In this document: piece after piece, positions 1-21,019 of the stretch
Layout of the letters: the number at the start of each line of letters is the position of its first letter
How positions within the stretch are numbered: position 1 is the first letter of the stretch
Virus record (IMG/VR): IMGVR_UViG_3300017749_000091
Location: 1-28,653 of that record
Source: a virus
Length of the DNA: 28,653 nt
Strand: one strand, 5' to 3'
Translations under genes and position numbers: made by a program
Notes under the pieces: generated by a model
Database searches by the model: none
What the model was told of the DNA's origin: nothing
Seen by the model: the letters and a program-made list of their open reading frames with translations, nothing else

Positions 1-402
1 CCTGACGGCTGGTACGACGCTCGCATTATGGGCGCCGAGTTGAAAGTGACTAAGCAGGGAAATGGGCGCTTTCTCTCGCTTAGGTACGATATAATTGGTG
101 GTGACTACGCTGGCCGCGTTGTTTTTGGCAACGTCACCATTAACAATAAAAGTGCGACAGCCGAGTCAATTGGTCGTAAGCAATTAAGTCAGATTGCTAT
201 GGCTGGTGGCATGAGCGCTTTACCAAAGGACAGCGATGAGTTGGTTGGTATGGACTTAAAAATCAAGGCAACAATTAGGGCTGCAACTGAGCAATATGCG
301 GCCTCGAACGATGTCCGAGATTGGAAACCAATGGAAGGTGGATCTGATATGCCGCCGCCAAGTAAAAAATCCAACGGTGCGACCGCGCCTTGGGCTAAAT
401 AA
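1..402 (+). CDS. DUF669-type phage DNA-metabolism protein (5' end cut by window)
   Basis: The reading frame is open from the first base (it begins P-D-G-W-Y-D-A-R-I-M), so the gene starts left of the window. Met at 28 is internal. The visible 133 residues match my memory of the DUF669 family: an N-terminal GWY-x-A-x-I/V, then ELK-x-T-K-x-G-x-G-x-L-L-x-Y-D, then a V-x-NVTINN strand and a helix with IG-x-x-L-x-x-I. The C-terminus is a Pro/Lys/Gly/Ser tail ending in PWAK, reminiscent of acidic or flexible tails on phage ssDNA-binding proteins. DUF669 proteins usually sit in phage recombination/replication modules and are often thought to be SSB-like; that role is inferred, not shown here. A strong hairpin terminator follows directly, which suggests this gene is expressed more than those downstream. 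Confidence 0.8.
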   Translation, partial: PDGWYDARIMGAELKVTKQGNGRFLSLRYDIIGGDYAGRVVFGNVTINNKSATAESIGRKQLSQIAMAGGMSALPKDSDELVGMDLKIKATIRAATEQYAASNDVRDWKPMEGGSDMPPPSKKSNGATAPWAK

Positions 403-444: not shown

Positions 445-678
445 ATGACAAAAACTAATTTAATAGAACTGACGGATTTAGAGCTTGCGATGTTAGATGA
501 GATTGCTTTTTATGGCGCGGGAGAATTAAATTATTTGTTCTCCAAAAACCAAAAAAATATAGTTAAAAAAGTGATGGGAAAAATAGAATATGCACTGTAT
601 TTAAAGATGGAAAGAAAAGGCAAAAGGGGAGACTCGCATCTTGATGAATTGTTACAAAAAATAAAAGGCATTGAATGA
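445..678 (+). CDS. Small hypothetical protein, 77 aa
   Basis: The protein is a small, Lys-rich and probably helical polypeptide with no domain I recognise. It starts MTKTNLIELTDLELAMLDEI, and its second half is strongly basic (KMERKGKRGD). I chose ATG 445 over the in-frame TTG at 433 because 433 almost abuts the terminator T-tract, although neither start has a convincing Shine-Dalgarno. The stop overlaps the next start as ATGA (675-678), so translation is coupled to the nuclease gene. Its place at the head of the operon suggests an early accessory role, but no function can be assigned. Confidence 0.6.
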   Translation: MTKTNLIELTDLELAMLDEIAFYGAGELNYLFSKNQKNIVKKVMGKIEYALYLKMERKGKRGDSHLDELLQKIKGIE

Positions 679-1682
679 GCAAAATCGTAGAACTGATCGA
701 CAGGTACCACCAAGAGAAAACTGATACGCAGCGTGGGCATATGGGCGGCAGTTTGCTCGGGCATAAGTGCGAGCGCTATCTTTTTTATATGTTTCGGTGG
801 ACGTTTGCGGAGAACTTCCCCGGTCGTATCCGACGGCTTTTCCGTCGAGGCCACGATGAGGAACGCACCATTGTCAGTGATCTGCGAGCAATCGGTATTG
901 ATATCCGTGACGTTGGCAACAATCAGGCGCGTGTCGAATTTGGCGGACACGTTAGCGGATCAGTTGATGGCGTGATCAAGAGCGGCGTACCCGGTCATGA
1001 GATGGAAGAATTTTTAGCAGAATTTAAAACGCACAACAAACGTTCTTTTGACGCTGTTTCGAGGAAAGGCGTTCAAGAGTCTAAGCCTATGCACTATGCA
1101 CAAATGCAAGTGTATATGCTTGGAAAAGAAATACACAAAGCATTGTATGTCGCCGTGTGCAAGGACAACGACGAGATGTACACCGAGATTGTCGAGTTTG
1201 ATAAAGAGTTTGCCGAGCGTTTACTGCGCAAGGGAGAATGGATTGCGACGTCAATGGAAGCGCCGCCAAGACTGTCGAGCGATCCAACTTGGTTTGCTTG
1301 CAAGATGTGTCCGGCGAAACATATCTGCCACGAGAATAAACCGACCAAACAAATTAACTGTCGGACGTGCGCTCACTCGGAGCCAAAACCTAACGGCACT
1401 TGGACGTGCAACAGGCATAACGCGGACAACATTCCCGAGGATTTTCAGCACAAGGGATGCGAGGATCATATCCTCCATCGAGACGTTGTGCCTTGGCCGA
1501 GGATGGAAAGCGACGATCCTAATGTTGTCACGTTTGAGATTAACGGCCAGTTCATTAAGAACGGCAATGGAGAAGATTGTTTTGCAAGCAGTGAGCTTGT
1601 TAGCAATACGGATGCTTGTCTGAGTCCAGACGAGTTTATTGGAAATTTAAGATCTGACTTTGGGGGAAAGATATCAGGATGA
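675..1682 (+). CDS. PD-(D/E)XK nuclease, RecB/Cas4-like, with Cys cluster
   Basis: This 335-aa protein carries the motifs of the RecB/Cas4-type exonuclease fold. It has a G-x-x-x-E motif near residues 59-63 (GHDEE), Asp98 in GSVDGVI, Glu116-x-Lys118 in AEFKTHN, and a Q-motif helix (YAQMQVYM, 141-148). Cys32 plus C209-x2-C212-x5-C218 matches the split four-Cys arrangement that holds a 4Fe-4S cluster in AddB and Cas4 relatives. A second group (C229, C232, C245 and a later Cys) may bind zinc. The C-terminal ~80 residues are not recognised. It likely processes DNA ends in phage recombination or degrades host DNA. It overlaps both neighbours by 4 bases (ATGA). The fold is well supported; polarity and substrate are unknown. 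Confidence 0.82.
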   Translation: MSKIVELIDRYHQEKTDTQRGHMGGSLLGHKCERYLFYMFRWTFAENFPGRIRRLFRRGHDEERTIVSDLRAIGIDIRDVGNNQARVEFGGHVSGSVDGVIKSGVPGHEMEEFLAEFKTHNKRSFDAVSRKGVQESKPMHYAQMQVYMLGKEIHKALYVAVCKDNDEMYTEIVEFDKEFAERLLRKGEWIATSMEAPPRLSSDPTWFACKMCPAKHICHENKPTKQINCRTCAHSEPKPNGTWTCNRHNADNIPEDFQHKGCEDHILHRDVVPWPRMESDDPNVVTFEINGQFIKNGNGEDCFASSELVSNTDACLSPDEFIGNLRSDFGGKISG

Positions 1683-1915
1683 TTAAACAATTAAATCTAA
1701 TCGAGTCCGAAAATCATTGGACTGATATGCCTGAGTTTATTCAGGAAAAACAAAAACCATTTTCTCAAATTGTAATTCGGTTTAATTCAGAAAAAGATTT
1801 AAACGAGTTTGCAAAAATAATTGGGCAAAAGTTGACGCCAAAAACAAAAAGCATATGGCATCCATTTAAGTCTCATTTTAGAGCTGCAATTAAAGAGTGG
1901 CAGGATGAATCCTAA
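1679..1915 (+). CDS. Small ParB-C-like phage module, 78 aa
   Basis: The motif series W14-x2-MPEF-x-Q, then I-x-I-x-F-x-S/D-x3-D-x3-FA, then IGQ (48-50), then TPKTKSIW-x-P (53-62) is one I recognise from many phage proteins. There it often forms the C-terminal part of ParB/Srx-like proteins or stands alone beside DNA-modification genes. Here it is free-standing; no ParB N-terminal catalytic domain precedes it. Biochemical function is unknown to me. It starts with ATGA overlap to the nuclease, and its last 11 bases overlap the glycosyltransferase start, so the pair is probably made together. Linkage to DNA modification is inferred from the neighbour. Confidence 0.62.
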   Translation: MIKQLNLIESENHWTDMPEFIQEKQKPFSQIVIRFNSEKDLNEFAKIIGQKLTPKTKSIWHPFKSHFRAAIKEWQDES

Positions 1916-2777
1916 GCATCCAGTTTATATTGTGTCGAAAGGCAGATGGGATTCTCGTTTAACATCGAAAGCGCTCGAATATATGGGAGTCCCATATTTT
2001 ATTATTGTTGAGAAAAATGAGTACGATGAGTATGCAAAAGTAATTGACAAGAGAAAGATACTTGTTCTGCCTCGACAATATAAAACTGAGTACGATACGT
2101 TTTGGCCTAGAGAAAGTGATACGAGAACGGGGCCCGGCCCTGCGCGAAATTTTGCATGGAATCATTCCATCGATTCTGGTCATCGGTATCACTGGGTCAT
2201 GGACGACAACTTGGATGCGTTCCATCGTTTAAATAGAAATGAAAAATGGGAAACAAACACCGGCACAATTTTTAAATGCATGGAAGATTTTACTGAGAGA
2301 TATTCCAACGTTGCCATCTCTGGCCCAAACTATTATTCATTTGTAAAATCAACCGATGCTGTTCCGCCATTTGTTTTAAACACGCGAATTTACAGCTGCT
2401 TACTGATAAAGAATGACATTCCATATCGATGGCGTGGACGTTACAACGAAGATACAGATTTATCTTTGCGAGTTTTAAAAGATGGACTTTGCACAATTCA
2501 ATTTAACGCATTCTTACAAGGAAAAGTTACAACACAAAGAATGTCTGGCGGCAACACAAAAGAATTTTACAAGTCAGACGGCACGAAAGATAAAAGCCAA
2601 ATGCTTGCCGATATGCATCCAGACGTTGCAAAAGTTGTTTGGCGATTTAATCGTTGGCATCACCACGTTGATTACCGACCGTTTAAAAAAAATAAACTTG
2701 AATTTGATCCAAGTTTTGTTTCAAAAGCAAAAACAAATGAGTACAACATGACATTAAGGGAGAAAGTAAATGCTTAA
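1905..2777 (+). CDS. TET/JBP-associated-type glycosyltransferase (TAGT/GREB1-like, GT-A fold)
   Basis: This 290-aa protein has the hallmarks of the phage TAGT family. They are an N-terminal YIVSKGRW (8-15) followed by a GVPYFIIVE strand, GPGPARNFAWNHSI (76-89), and the GT-A metal/nucleotide-sugar motif in HWVMDDN (96-102, Asp100-Asp101). RYNEDTDLSLR (179-189) looks like the acceptor-side acidic motif, and a MSGG loop and His-rich segment (251-254) follow. The family was described as transferring sugars onto oxidised bases in phage DNA, and human GREB1 carries a related domain. Here it sits between a ParB-C-like gene and a DUF6378 gene in an early DNA-metabolism operon. No TET/JBP hydroxylase is visible in the window, so the acceptor base is unknown. 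The family call is strong; the substrate is inference. Confidence 0.78.
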   Translation: MNPKHPVYIVSKGRWDSRLTSKALEYMGVPYFIIVEKNEYDEYAKVIDKRKILVLPRQYKTEYDTFWPRESDTRTGPGPARNFAWNHSIDSGHRYHWVMDDNLDAFHRLNRNEKWETNTGTIFKCMEDFTERYSNVAISGPNYYSFVKSTDAVPPFVLNTRIYSCLLIKNDIPYRWRGRYNEDTDLSLRVLKDGLCTIQFNAFLQGKVTTQRMSGGNTKEFYKSDGTKDKSQMLADMHPDVAKVVWRFNRWHHHVDYRPFKKNKLEFDPSFVSKAKTNEYNMTLREKVNA

Positions 2778-3078
2778 AAATAATGTAGTAGATACACTAG
2801 CCGAGCGTCACGGGCAATACGGACATTACACTTATGTTAGTAAAACCAGCCAGCTCTTAAAACGAACCATTCGAGAGTCGCCAAACTACAAAACGATGCC
2901 AGCGTACATGAACGAGAGTCTCGACATGATATGCAACAAACTGGCTCGGATCTTGTGCGGCAATTACTTTCTTCGAGACTCATGGCTTGACATAGAGGGC
3001 TACGCAAAACTGGTGACCGATGAACTTGATAAACTGGATAACTTGAATGCTGAGAAAGTATCAGAACTTAGCGATTGA
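2770..3078 (+). CDS. DUF6378-type phage protein
   Basis: The 102-aa all-helical protein shows LAERHGQYG (10-18), then ESLDMI-x2-KLARIL (49-62) and DSWLDIEGYAKL (70-81). I recognise this pattern from the phage family named DUF6378. The acidic/helical layout loosely resembles all-alpha NTP pyrophosphatases (MazG/dUTPase type), but I do not see a full E-x-x-E...E-x-x-D metal site, so enzymatic activity is speculative. It overlaps the glycosyltransferase by 8 bases and the helicase by 32. If it acts on nucleotides, it could serve the neighbouring base-modification gene. Confidence 0.65.
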   Translation: MLKNNVVDTLAERHGQYGHYTYVSKTSQLLKRTIRESPNYKTMPAYMNESLDMICNKLARILCGNYFLRDSWLDIEGYAKLVTDELDKLDNLNAEKVSELSD

Positions 3079-4642
3079 TCAACTCTACGAATGGTTTCGG
3101 TTTAACAGGTACGGGAATCCGTGCATTGTTTTGCCGACCGGCAGCGGAAAGTCGCACGTCGTTGCAGCGATATGTCAGGACTCAATAAAAAGATGGCCTG
3201 ACACTCGTATCTTAATGGCGACACACGTCAAGGAATTAATCGAGCAGAATGCGGAAAAGATGCTTTTGCACTGGCCAGACGCGCCGCTCGGCATCTACTC
3301 AGCAGGAATTGGGCGTAAAGAATCCCATTGCAAAATCACGTTTGCAGGCATTCAGTCTATCAGAAACAAGGCCCACGAAATAGGGCATATTGATCTGATG
3401 ATTGTCGATGAAGCTCACCTGATATCGCATAACACGGATACCAGTTACCGTAAACTAATCGATGCGCTCAAGATTATTAATCCTGCGCTGCGCGTTGTCG
3501 GATTGACTGCGACGCCGTACAGACTCGGTCACGGGATGTTGACCGATGAAGAGGGCATATTCCATGATCTGATTGAGCCGACCAGTATCGAGGCGCTAGT
3601 TGAGGATAAATACCTCGCGCCGCTGCGCTCTAAACTGACAGGAACGCAATTAAGCGTCAAAGGCGTACACCGTCGAGGCGGCGAGTTTATTGAGAAAGAA
3701 TTGCAAGCCGCTGTGAATAAGTCGCACACAAACTTGGAAGTCGTGCGCGAAGTGATTAAATTGGCTGGCGACCGTAAGGCTTGGTTGTTCTTTTGCGCTG
3801 GCGTAGACCACGCTCACGCCATTAAAGATATGCTGGTGGACTCTGGCATCCCTGCGGAATGCATCACGGGAGAGACGCCTAAGATCGAGCGAGAGCGCAT
3901 CATTGCCGACTTCAAGTCTGGACGCCTGAGAGCGCTTACAAACGCCAACGTCCTGACTACCGGCTTTGACTATCCAGACATCGACTTAATCGCCATGATA
4001 AGGCCAACGATGTCTGCTGGGCTGTATGTGCAGATGGCTGGGCGTGGTATGCGCATTAAGAGCCACACCGATCACTGTTTGGTGCTAGATTTTGCTGGCG
4101 TTGTGCAGATGCATGGGCCAATTACAAATGTTCAGCCGCCAAACAAGGCCGGTAAAGGCACTGGAGAGGCGCCAGTAAAGACTTGCCCAGAGTGTGACAG
4201 TTTGATAGCGCCAGCGGTTAAAGTCTGCCCAGACTGTGGATATGAGTTCCCACCGCCAAAAGAAAAAAAGTACCGTTTGTCAGACATTGACATAATGGGC
4301 AGCTCAAGCAATGCGCTCTCGGTAGAATCTTGGTTATGGTCAACGCATACCTCTAGGGCTAGTGGAAAGAACATGGTGAAAGTCCAATATTACTCTAAGC
4401 TGTTAAGCGATCCAGTCATATCAGAATATTTTCCACTGACGCATGACGGTTTTGTCGGCAATAGGGCTACAATTAAGTTAGCAGAAATTGCTAATAAATC
4501 TAAAATTTCTTTTCAGTTTTTAGATGCGGCGTCGCTTGACGACATTTGTTTTGAAATGAATAAAGGAAAATGCCCTGATGAAATACGTTTTCGGAAAGAA
4601 GGGAAATACTACAAGGTTGTCAAAAGGGACTGGTCGCTCTGA
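3047..4642 (+). CDS. SF2 DEAH-box helicase with C-terminal zinc ribbon
   Basis: This 531-aa protein has a complete superfamily 2 helicase core. The motifs are RKYQ near the start (Q-motif region), Walker A TGSGKS (31-36), DEAH (121-124), TATP (154-157), TNANVLTTGFDYP (298-310) and QMAGRGMR (329-336). A CxxC...CxxC ribbon (C380, C383, C394, C397) follows, then about 130 residues of unknown fold. It resembles phage helicases of the type III restriction/UvsW-like group, which unwind or remodel branched DNA in replication and recombination. The ATG at 3047 sits inside the previous gene but is supported by the typical ML-R-x-YQ start. It overlaps the VRR-NUC gene by 65 bases. Confidence 0.93.
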   Translation: MLRKYQNLAIDQLYEWFRFNRYGNPCIVLPTGSGKSHVVAAICQDSIKRWPDTRILMATHVKELIEQNAEKMLLHWPDAPLGIYSAGIGRKESHCKITFAGIQSIRNKAHEIGHIDLMIVDEAHLISHNTDTSYRKLIDALKIINPALRVVGLTATPYRLGHGMLTDEEGIFHDLIEPTSIEALVEDKYLAPLRSKLTGTQLSVKGVHRRGGEFIEKELQAAVNKSHTNLEVVREVIKLAGDRKAWLFFCAGVDHAHAIKDMLVDSGIPAECITGETPKIERERIIADFKSGRLRALTNANVLTTGFDYPDIDLIAMIRPTMSAGLYVQMAGRGMRIKSHTDHCLVLDFAGVVQMHGPITNVQPPNKAGKGTGEAPVKTCPECDSLIAPAVKVCPDCGYEFPPPKEKKYRLSDIDIMGSSSNALSVESWLWSTHTSRASGKNMVKVQYYSKLLSDPVISEYFPLTHDGFVGNRATIKLAEIANKSKISFQFLDAASLDDICFEMNKGKCPDEIRFRKEGKYYKVVKRDWSL

Positions 4643-4973
4643 ACACGTTGAGCAACGAGAGTTTGTAAGTTGGTTCCGCAAAAGTTACAAAGGAATAAGG
4701 ATCATTGCAATACCAAACGGCGGTCAAAGAAATATCGCGACTGCGGCACGATTAAAGGCCGAGGGAGTCATGCGAGGAGTTCCAGACTTGTACGTTCCAG
4801 CGTGGATGCTGTGGATCGAAATGAAGAAATCTAGTGGTGGTCGAGTGTCCCCGGAACAAAAGGACTGGCACAATTATTTACAAAGCATTAACCAAAATGT
4901 TATTATCACGGCAGGATTTGAAAATGCAAAACTACAAATTGAAGATTTTATAGAGGAGATGGAAAATGCCTGA
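4578..4973 (+). CDS. VRR-NUC domain nuclease
   Basis: The 131-aa protein matches the VRR-NUC branch of PD-(D/E)XK nucleases. It has IPNGGQRN (45-52), an Arg/Lys/Ala helix (ARLKAEGVMRGVPD), Asp70 in GVPDLYV, and Glu81-x-Lys83 in WIEMKK, followed by GGRVSPEQKDWHNYL, a typical ending. Stand-alone VRR-NUC proteins in phages are predicted structure-specific nucleases. It follows the helicase directly, which suggests the two act on the same DNA intermediates. The first ~16 residues lie inside the helicase gene. A TTG at 4617 is an alternative start that would reduce the overlap to 26 bases. Confidence 0.9.
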   Translation: MKYVFGKKGNTTRLSKGTGRSEHVEQREFVSWFRKSYKGIRIIAIPNGGQRNIATAARLKAEGVMRGVPDLYVPAWMLWIEMKKSSGGRVSPEQKDWHNYLQSINQNVIITAGFENAKLQIEDFIEEMENA

Positions 4974-6181: not shown

Positions 6182-6546
6182 TTATGTTTAACTCTAAATT
6201 TAATTAAATAAAATCCAGCATTCATTAACACTTTAAAACTGTCTTTGTATAGACCAAGGCCCATGTTGCAGCGCTTGCACAGCATACCTCTTATTCTCCC
6301 ACTATTGTGGCAGTGGTCAACTGAAAGCGTGTCTATTGCGTCCTTAGTCCCTAGCCTCTTACAAATTAAACAACGGTTTTGCTGGCTGTCTGCCAGATCC
6401 ATCATCTCAGTCAGCGTTATTCCGTAACGAGTCCTTAAATGATAATTAGCATTTTCGCTTTTACTTCTTGCTCTTCTTTTTCTTTTTGGTTTTGACTGTT
6501 TTAGCTGTTTTTGCTGCTTGCTTAAATTGCTTGGCTGTTGGCGCAC
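6070..6546 (-). CDS. Recombination endonuclease VII-like (T4 gp49 family) Holliday-junction nuclease
   Basis: The core, counted from the in-frame ATG at 6552, has C61-x2-C64, the DHCH motif (79-82) and C92-x2-C95-Asn96. This is the zinc site and Asp/His/Asn catalytic set of T4 endonuclease VII, preceded by the family-typical RYGIT (42-46). The enzyme resolves branched DNA before packaging. I prefer GTG 6546, which has GGAG 6 bases upstream, over ATG 6552, which touches that GGAG. Both ends overlap neighbours: about 86 bases with the 59-aa gene and 112 bases with the holin-like gene. The last ~43 residues have no family resemblance and may be a readthrough tail. Family certain; ends uncertain. 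Confidence 0.85.
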   Translation of the reverse strand: MRQQPSNLSKQQKQLKQSKPKRKRRARSKSENANYHLRTRYGITLTEMMDLADSQQNRCLICKRLGTKDAIDTLSVDHCHNSGRIRGMLCKRCNMGLGLYKDSFKVLMNAGFYLIKFRVKHKCSDLGQKLYSLLVVTSWAYSAASWRTRKRLKQMNKN

Positions 6547-6640
6547 CTTCATCTCCCGGCTTTCTCATTTTCTCACCAGAGCCAGCTTTGATCCTATCTT
6601 TCTTGGCTTTGATGTTGGCATAAAGTCCACGTTTTGCCAT
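6461..6640 (-). CDS. Small basic conserved phage protein, 59 aa
   Basis: The minus strand reads ATG 6640 to TAA 6461, with AAAGGA about 5 bases upstream inside the end of the preceding gene. The product begins MAKRGLYANIKAKKDRIKAG and continues SGEKMRKPG-x2-GAPTA, then Lys/Ala-rich to a poly-Lys end. I recognise the core GLYANI-x-AK-x-x-RI-x-AGSGEKMRKPG from many marine and T7-like phage genomes, where it is an uncharacterised small protein. Its charge suggests nucleic-acid binding, which is inference. It overlaps the endonuclease VII start in a different frame. Confidence 0.85.
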   Translation of the reverse strand: MAKRGLYANIKAKKDRIKAGSGEKMRKPGDEGAPTAKQFKQAAKTAKTVKTKKKKKSKK

Positions 6641-6642
6641 GA

Positions 6643-6933
6643 CTATCCTTTCTTACTTTTGTTTCGTTTAGAAATTGATGCACTCTTTTTCTTGGCGTCT
6701 GCTTTAGATGATGCGCCCCACGCCTGTAGACTTAAAAGCAATCTTGTCGGCTTTCCTTTAGAGTCTCGCTCTGGGCCTTTCATGCCGCCCATGCGAGCAA
6801 GAAAAGACGCACGTCGAGGATTGTCTCCAGACTTAACTGGCGACTTTAAATTTGCGCCTGTAGTTTTTTTAAAGTGTTTGCGGCCTTTTTCATTTAAGCC
6901 GCCTTTTGGATTTTGATGTACTTTCTTAACCAT
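6643..6933 (-). CDS. DUF6321 family basic phage protein
   Basis: The 96-aa protein matches the pattern I know as DUF6321. It has NPKGGLNEKGR (8-18), then KSPVKSGDNPRRASFLARM-x2-MKGP and GKPTRLLLSLQAWG (~60-73), then a Lys/Ser-rich tail. The function is unknown. The family is frequent in marine phages, and its high positive charge suggests DNA or RNA contact. It overlaps the upstream membrane-protein gene by 8 bases, and its final codons provide the ribosome site for the 59-aa gene, so it is part of the same late transcript. Confidence 0.82.
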   Translation of the reverse strand: MVKKVHQNPKGGLNEKGRKHFKKTTGANLKSPVKSGDNPRRASFLARMGGMKGPERDSKGKPTRLLLSLQAWGASSKADAKKKSASISKRNKSKKG

Positions 6934-20398: not shown

Positions 20399-21019
20399 TT
20401 AGCCATCTAATCGATCAATTAATTCCGCAAAAGGAATGTCGAAACAAAATTGAATGACTTTTCTTTTTATTTTTTTTGTATGCTCAAAAAGATCTTTATT
20501 CCTCATTAATGGATTTCCCTTGTATTTTTTATCCACAATAATTTTTTCAGATTCCAAGTTTGGCAAAACTGAGTGTGCGGTTAAAGTATCCAAGGCCCAT
20601 GCTTCTTGGGGTTTTGCAATAAATCGATCGACCGGATAAATATCTCGATCGCACCTAACTGCGTAATAAGTATTTCCGTTATCTTTTGTTAAACGGTTAT
20701 CTCGCTCCAATTCACCATGCCAAAACGTTGTCACTTCATCATCGGTATCAATATAAAAATTGATTATCGATTGATCTGACGTATGAATATGAGGCGTCAA
20801 TAAATTTAAATCTGTTACCGAATGCCTAATAATAAAATCTTTAACGCTAGATAAGCAGCCAACGTATTCGTCAAACTCATCAAGCTCTTTTCTCACAAAC
20901 ATAGGCACATTACTTATTTTTCCTACACCGTAATGATTGATCTTTTTTCTTTCCTTGTTTTTAAGTTTAGGAAAAACAATATTTAGTTTTTTAGAATGTT
21001 TAAACAAACTTAATCCCAA
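20399..21019 (-). CDS. Tail-cluster protein, possible 2-oxoglutarate/Fe(II) oxygenase fold
   Basis: In the 206-aa protein, residues 74-101 (LTPHIHTSDQSIINFYIDTD) and 137-154 (KPQEAWALDTLTAHSVLPN) carry His77/His79 and His149 in beta-rich contexts. A C-terminal Arg-rich strand KRKVIQFCFDIPF ends the domain. The order resembles double-stranded beta-helix proteins such as 2OG-Fe(II) oxygenases, though the first H-x-D pair is not clear. In this phage context it could instead be a structural or cofactor-free member. It overlaps the next gene by 20 bases. Confidence in the fold is low; the gene itself is certain. Confidence 0.6.
   Translation of the reverse strand: MGLSLFKHSKKLNIVFPKLKNKERKKINHYGVGKISNVPMFVRKELDEFDEYVGCLSSVKDFIIRHSVTDLNLLTPHIHTSDQSIINFYIDTDDEVTTFWHGELERDNRLTKDNGNTYYAVRCDRDIYPVDRFIAKPQEAWALDTLTAHSVLPNLESEKIIVDKKYKGNPLMRNKDLFEHTKKIKRKVIQFCFDIPFAELIDRLDG

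Follow-up and report, generated by a model that had tools for sequence, protein, structure and literature searches.

Phage T6 encodes a glycosyltransferase, ggt, that belongs to family PF20691 and glucosylates glucosyl-hmC DNA, working downstream of a dCMP hydroxymethylase (PMC13216743). In our searches T6 ggt matched PF20691 with E=4.8e-11 in one search and E=1e-8 in another, and it adjoins the dCMP hydroxymethylase gene 42. Solitary TAGT glycosyltransferases have been reported in 288 of 753 phage genomes, in a study that leaves both their function and their substrate open (PMC13216743). The glycosyltransferase of Aeromonas phage Aeh1 is listed as presumably DNA-modifying, with the base not known, citing Iyer 2013 (PMC8056088). 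Gene 42 is missing from Aeh1 and 65 according to a published gene table, and some T4 relatives without genes 42/56 are reported to be sensitive to restriction enzymes, a finding that is not tied to Aeh1 or 65 (PMC2993671) and that counts against a DNA-glycosylation reading. Given T2/T6 ggt (PF20691), the solitary TAGTs and the Aeh1 protein, a TAGT without TET is not the novelty that a sequence-only reading of the present locus had taken it for.

Here we analysed a TAGT locus in a linear 28.65-kb virus fragment (the window, meaning the whole stretch of DNA). The region singled out by the sequence-only reading (1679-3078) spans three genes, N78, TAGT and DUF6378, and Table 1 lists these together with the flanking operon. 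In a Pfam profile search, the 290-aa TAGT protein matched PF20691 with 164 bits (cut-off 27.5), and it also matched phrog_842 (named for T-even beta-glucosyl-HMC-alpha-glucosyltransferase) with E=1.4e-54, so that the proposed family membership stands; a profile search against PDB sequences gave no significant match. The N-terminal motifs named in that reading are present (YIVSKGR at residues 8-14, GPGPARNFAW at 76-85 and HWVMDDN at 96-102, the last containing D100 and D101). Residue comparison shows D100, D101, E182 and D183 to be kept in essentially all TAGT relatives and in T6 ggt, and R81, D100, D101, N159, E182, D183 and R250 of the window protein are common to T6 ggt. Codon comparison of the window TAGT with two relatives (L003/L005) gave dN of 0.03-0.05 and dS of 0.26-0.47, and comparisons with relatives gave dN/dS of ~0.1-0.2 for both TAGT and the preceding 78-aa ORF, indicating that both are under purifying selection.

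Table 1. Features of the window that are discussed in the text, with the evidence for each.
Feature	Position	Strand	Evidence and remarks
DUF669 / ssDNA-binding protein	1-402	+	PF05037, phrog_6015; flanking operon, cut at contig end
Cas4-domain exonuclease	675-1682	+	phrog_1990 E=1.4e-96; left border of insert
N78+TAGT insert, exact extent (1,091 bp)	1679-2769	+	Comparison with empty site in sister phages
N78 (78-aa TAGT partner)	1679-1915	+	EWxxMPEF...KTKSIWxP domain; N78 profile; adjacent or fused TAGT in relatives
TAGT glycosyltransferase (290 aa)	1905-2777	+	PF20691 E=4.8e-48; D100/D101 (DDN), E182/D183 (NEDTDLS)
DUF6378-like protein (102 aa)	2770-3078	+	Weak PF19905 match, E=0.004, under Pfam cut-off; right border, outside cassette
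Superfamily 2 helicase	3047-4642	+	PF04851 (ResIII), PF00271, phrog_16; flanking operon
VRR-NUC nuclease	4578-4973	+	PF08774 E=0.001 (under cut-off), phrog_824; flanking operon
Tail-region ORF (206 aa)	20399-21019	-	2OG-Fe(II) oxygenase-like HxH...H pattern (PHIHT...INFY...EVT.FW...AHSV...)

The N78 ORF overlaps the TAGT ORF by 11 nt, and the two are found together in nearly all loci that could be read. Among 89 TAGT loci (80 metagenomic and 9 from named phage isolates), a single-sequence search scored N78 as a separate neighbouring ORF in 56 and as part of the TAGT protein in 13; most of the other 20 have an N-terminal extension of 84-119 aa at the N78 position, and a few are cut by contig ends or ambiguous. 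In GTDB, N78 accompanies 47 out of 51 TAGT loci (37 adjacent and 10 fused), the remaining four being partial or at contig edges. A scan with an N78-only profile gave the reciprocal picture, with TAGT adjoining N78 in 78 out of 79 loci and the 79th contig ending right after N78; no N78 away from TAGT was found among these, the best 80 of 507 candidates, and remote N78 relatives may exist elsewhere. These patterns mark N78 as a dedicated, obligate partner of TAGT. N78 has no family in Pfam and only noise-level matches to PDB sequences, and we dropped the idea that it is a known domain.

The neighbour described as ParB-C-like in the sequence-only reading corresponds to N78, which is the C-terminal domain of longer, ParB_N-containing homologues. 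In these long forms (~215-240 aa) ParB_N lies upstream of N78 (E down to 8e-11), while a Pfam search showed it to be absent from the window N78. The ParB domain of the long forms is also similar to the N-terminal region of phrog_498, a family of DNA methyltransferases. Such ParB-domain/methyltransferase fusions resemble the long N78-TAGT forms in that ParB_N is partnered with a DNA-modifying enzyme, but their partner is a methyltransferase and the window N78 is without ParB_N. We note several variant arrangements among relatives: a single 690-aa protein with ParB_N, N78 and TAGT (L423, 2219-4288), a tandem TAGT pair with an N78-like N-terminal part on each in Vibrio phage Kuja (L090, 3581-6269), and a second copy of the partner, in the shape of an additional N78-like ORF that follows TAGT (L033-L035, L088, and L144 at 6459-6701).

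Compared with the described enzymes, the window TAGT shares with T2/T6 ggt the family, the GT-A fold, the DD motif and a genome without TET, but it is only ~21% identical to it, and ggt is without N78 and puts a second sugar onto alpha-glucosyl-hmC; the presence of N78 places the window protein outside the T-even ggt subfamily. The TAGTs of Aeromonas phages Aeh1 and 65 are closer (53-57% identical, with a fused N78-type N-terminal extension), although each is a single fused gene in a jumbo myovirus and does not interrupt a Cas4-helicase operon. N78 and TAGT form a real, conserved two-gene system that combines a known family with a new partner and a new context.

We modelled the structure of a fused homologue (L023, 399 aa), the TAGT part of which is 62% identical to the window TAGT. 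The AlphaFold2 model (pLDDT 82, pTM 0.81) matched GT-A enzymes with Z of 12-14 (up to 13.7) in Foldseek and VIA-align searches; PDB matches included collagen galactosyltransferase, hyaluronan synthase, cellulose synthase (BcsA) and GalNAc-transferases, and among viral models it matched TAGT proteins and T-even-type ggt. The GT-A domain accounts for most of the matches, so that the search bears on TAGT and not on N78. The predicted fold of TAGT is GT-A, in agreement with the fold and DD motif expected from sequence. Enzymes with this fold modify proteins, glycans and small molecules alike, and with acceptors so varied the fold alone leaves the acceptor unfixed. The whole N78-TAGT model is covered by BFVD entry A0A6G6XN95 (890 aa).

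We gathered relatives of the window lineage via the portal and Cas4-exonuclease genes. In many of them (L235, L239, L240, L234, L236 and others) the site is empty, with the Cas4 stop directly overlapping the DUF6378 start, and many of these empty-site relatives have a Cas4 95-98% identical to that of the window. The N78+TAGT insert between Cas4 and DUF6378 is exactly 1,091 bp in the window, L002, L003 and L004, and 1,092-1,095 bp in L005 and L006. The DUF6378 gene also occurs without TAGT in relatives, and annotated isolates confirm the ancestral arrangement, which lacks the insert and runs AAA ATPase - DUF669 - Cas4 exonuclease - helicase - VRR nuclease. The neighbours named in the sequence-only reading were recovered as a Cas4 exonuclease (phrog_1990) and a helicase (ResIII/phrog_16), with the DUF6378 call remaining weak. 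Its picture of TAGT as a functional member of the nuclease/helicase operon around it did not hold up, since close relatives have the exonuclease-DUF6378-helicase-VRR operon without the cassette; membership of TAGT in a replication operon is ruled out by the same sister phages, which keep the operon intact without it.

A census of this slot was made by hand on ~50 distinct contigs in which Cas4 is 66% identical or more and the slot can be read, with loci of the same contig merged. About 25 slots are empty, 6 contain N78+TAGT and 19 contain other genes: a C5-methyltransferase in 5 (one also with a PAPS reductase), a phrog_954 DNA methyltransferase in 6 (L178 and five others), Mom in 3, an N6/N4 methyltransferase (PF01555; L267) in 1, PAPS reductase in 2 and an uncharacterised 241-aa protein in 2. 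The C5-cytosine methyltransferases (PF00145, E ~1e-53) were seen in L154, L184, L247 and L268, Mom (PF25680, E=2e-39) in L269 (1815-2420), and PAPS-reductase-like genes in L261, L262 and L184; a second Mom lies just after DUF6378 in L263 (3415-4053) and L264 (11289-11927). When methyltransferases (slot-derived and from TAGT phages), Mom, PAPS reductase and the 241-aa protein were used as queries, all 24 placeable homologues lay in the slot and none elsewhere. In distant relatives (~50% Cas4 identity) HNH/endonuclease VII-type genes also occupy it, which makes the slot an accessory site of a general kind, though strongly biased towards DNA modification. Among unrelated phages a methyltransferase gene was found near TAGT only in Vibrio phage 1.124.O, and the argument for DNA modification therefore rests on the slot and not on the general neighbourhood of TAGT. 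The PAPS reductase and 241-aa occupants are not proven DNA modifiers, and this, like the HNH/endonuclease VII-type genes, weighs against what is read from the slot.

We consider it probable that N78 and TAGT are the two components of a small, mobile phage cassette for DNA modification, in which TAGT glycosylates phage DNA and N78 is an obligatory subunit; the alternation with DNA methyltransferases and Mom thus lends support to the role in DNA modification suggested by the sequence-only reading, which we regard as probable. Mu-type Mom and the methyltransferases share the slot in sister phages and are one-gene systems that act on unmodified DNA, although as enzymes they are unrelated to TAGT and their chemistry differs (methyl or carbamoylmethyl-type groups). 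As these well-understood alternatives are self-contained modifiers of ordinary DNA, N78-TAGT is plausibly one too, and the best reading of the slot would be that of a self-contained modification allele interchangeable with methyltransferases and Mom. For the mechanism, we infer a DNA acceptor, protection from restriction and a role for N78, and any choice of sugar and base would likewise be inferred. TAGT would be a metal- and nucleotide-sugar-dependent GT-A enzyme with a D100/D101 metal site that transfers a sugar to phage DNA, and N78 (often with ParB_N) would most likely be an adaptor that keeps TAGT on DNA or shapes the acceptor site, with ParB_N, where present, perhaps contacting DNA. The glycosylated DNA would then be shielded from host restriction enzymes, much as methylated or momylated DNA is in sister phages with those genes in the slot. 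No gene for donor-sugar synthesis was identified.

Whether TAGT needs a hydroxylated base made by another enzyme is a separate matter. It may be a second-step enzyme that depends on a hydroxymethylated or hydroxylated base from TET, a TS-type hydroxymethylase, a ThyX-type enzyme or another 2OG oxygenase, the gene for which would lie in a part of the genome beyond the window. This account overlaps with the preferred one on the DNA target, and the need for a separate acceptor-making enzyme, to which we give somewhat less than an even chance, is what sets it apart; it is the strongest rival account when a non-homologous oxygenase is taken to provide the hydroxyl, which is compatible with a DNA target. 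T6 ggt does work downstream of a hydroxymethylase (PMC13216743), and the window is without its left arm. Tet_JBP was found in 1 out of 30 TAGT-bearing records (G017, L055/L082), where it lies ~1.4 kb downstream of TAGT and where a C5-methyltransferase homologue was not detected in the 36-kb contig; this is the only TAGT relative with TET/JBP. A 2OG oxygenase (PF13640) is present in three large TAGT records only, and larger TAGT isolates carry TS-fold proteins, which the search cannot separate from hydroxymethylases. The tail-region ORF with an oxygenase-like pattern (Table 1) has a homologue, L309, with a 14-bit Tet_JBP match, but the ORF is rare (two exact copies plus homologues in L154 and L309), its AlphaFold2 model is uninformative (pLDDT 34), and it had no match among PDB sequences.

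Against such a dependence, neither Tet_JBP nor thymidylate synthase matched in the window at E<=0.1, which agrees with the absence of TET/JBP noted from the sequence, and within the window lineage thymidylate synthase was found in 0 of 45 records and TET had no match over the cut-off, with left arms of up to ~9.5 kb included. The dCMP hydroxymethylase and TS fold of the T-even hmC pathway were likewise missing from the window fragment and its relatives, with a thymidylate-synthase fold in 0 of 30 TAGT-bearing records and ThyX in 0 of 40, and the dioxygenase typical of TET/JBP hypermodification was confined to G017. The deposited records of Vibrio phages 1.076.O and 1.124.O, each a partial genome of 48 kb, contain no TS, ThyX, TET or 2OG-FeII_Oxy_3 (PF13640). 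In an all-against-all comparison of 18 otherwise unrelated TAGT phage contigs (~0.8 Mb), only TAGT and N78 recur in more than five, with no third shared gene, so no phage acceptor-making gene travels with the pair; a hidden co-inherited hydroxylase was dropped as a candidate on this comparison together with the ThyX and PF13640 counts. Most records are fragments, and the absence of a hydroxylase from any one of them is weak evidence; the argument lies in the pattern across many. That N78-TAGT is fully self-sufficient, putting sugar directly on an unmodified DNA component with no pre-made hydroxyl acceptor, nevertheless seems to us rather unlikely; to our knowledge, such direct transfer would bring a new kind of chemistry to DNA modification.

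A target other than DNA, such as a protein, tRNA or cell-surface glycan (for instance to change the host surface or inactivate a defence protein), would fit with GT-A enzymes being mostly glycan and protein enzymes and with the top PDB matches listed above, but we judge it improbable in view of the slot alternation with DNA methyltransferases and Mom, the occurrence of the partner's ParB-like domain (long forms) in DNA-methyltransferase fusions, and the activity of TAGT family members on DNA (PMC13216743). Very improbable is a degenerate passenger, a moron in decay that no longer serves the window phage: only a minority of sister phages carry the cassette, as a passenger might suggest, but N78 and TAGT are under strong purifying selection, the precise gene overlaps maintain translational coupling, and the catalytic residues are kept in essentially all relatives.

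On the preferred reading of a DNA-modifying pair, solitary TAGTs gain an obligate partner, sometimes with ParB_N, and a context that points to DNA modification, and named cultured carriers are available (Aeromonas phages 65 and Aeh1). If the pair acts on unmodified DNA, it would offer a two-protein DNA-glycosylation tool and a new anti-restriction chemistry; if it is self-sufficient, phages would have sugar-coated DNA without the helper enzymes thought necessary for such systems.

Two other sets of genes from these searches may be of interest. The ~241-aa slot protein (phrog_17480; L270, 4188-4928, and L271) may be a new DNA-modifying protein or one that counters restriction. In L296/L297, a PAPS reductase is found together with DUF3440 and ParB_N, possibly another ParB-partnered DNA modification.
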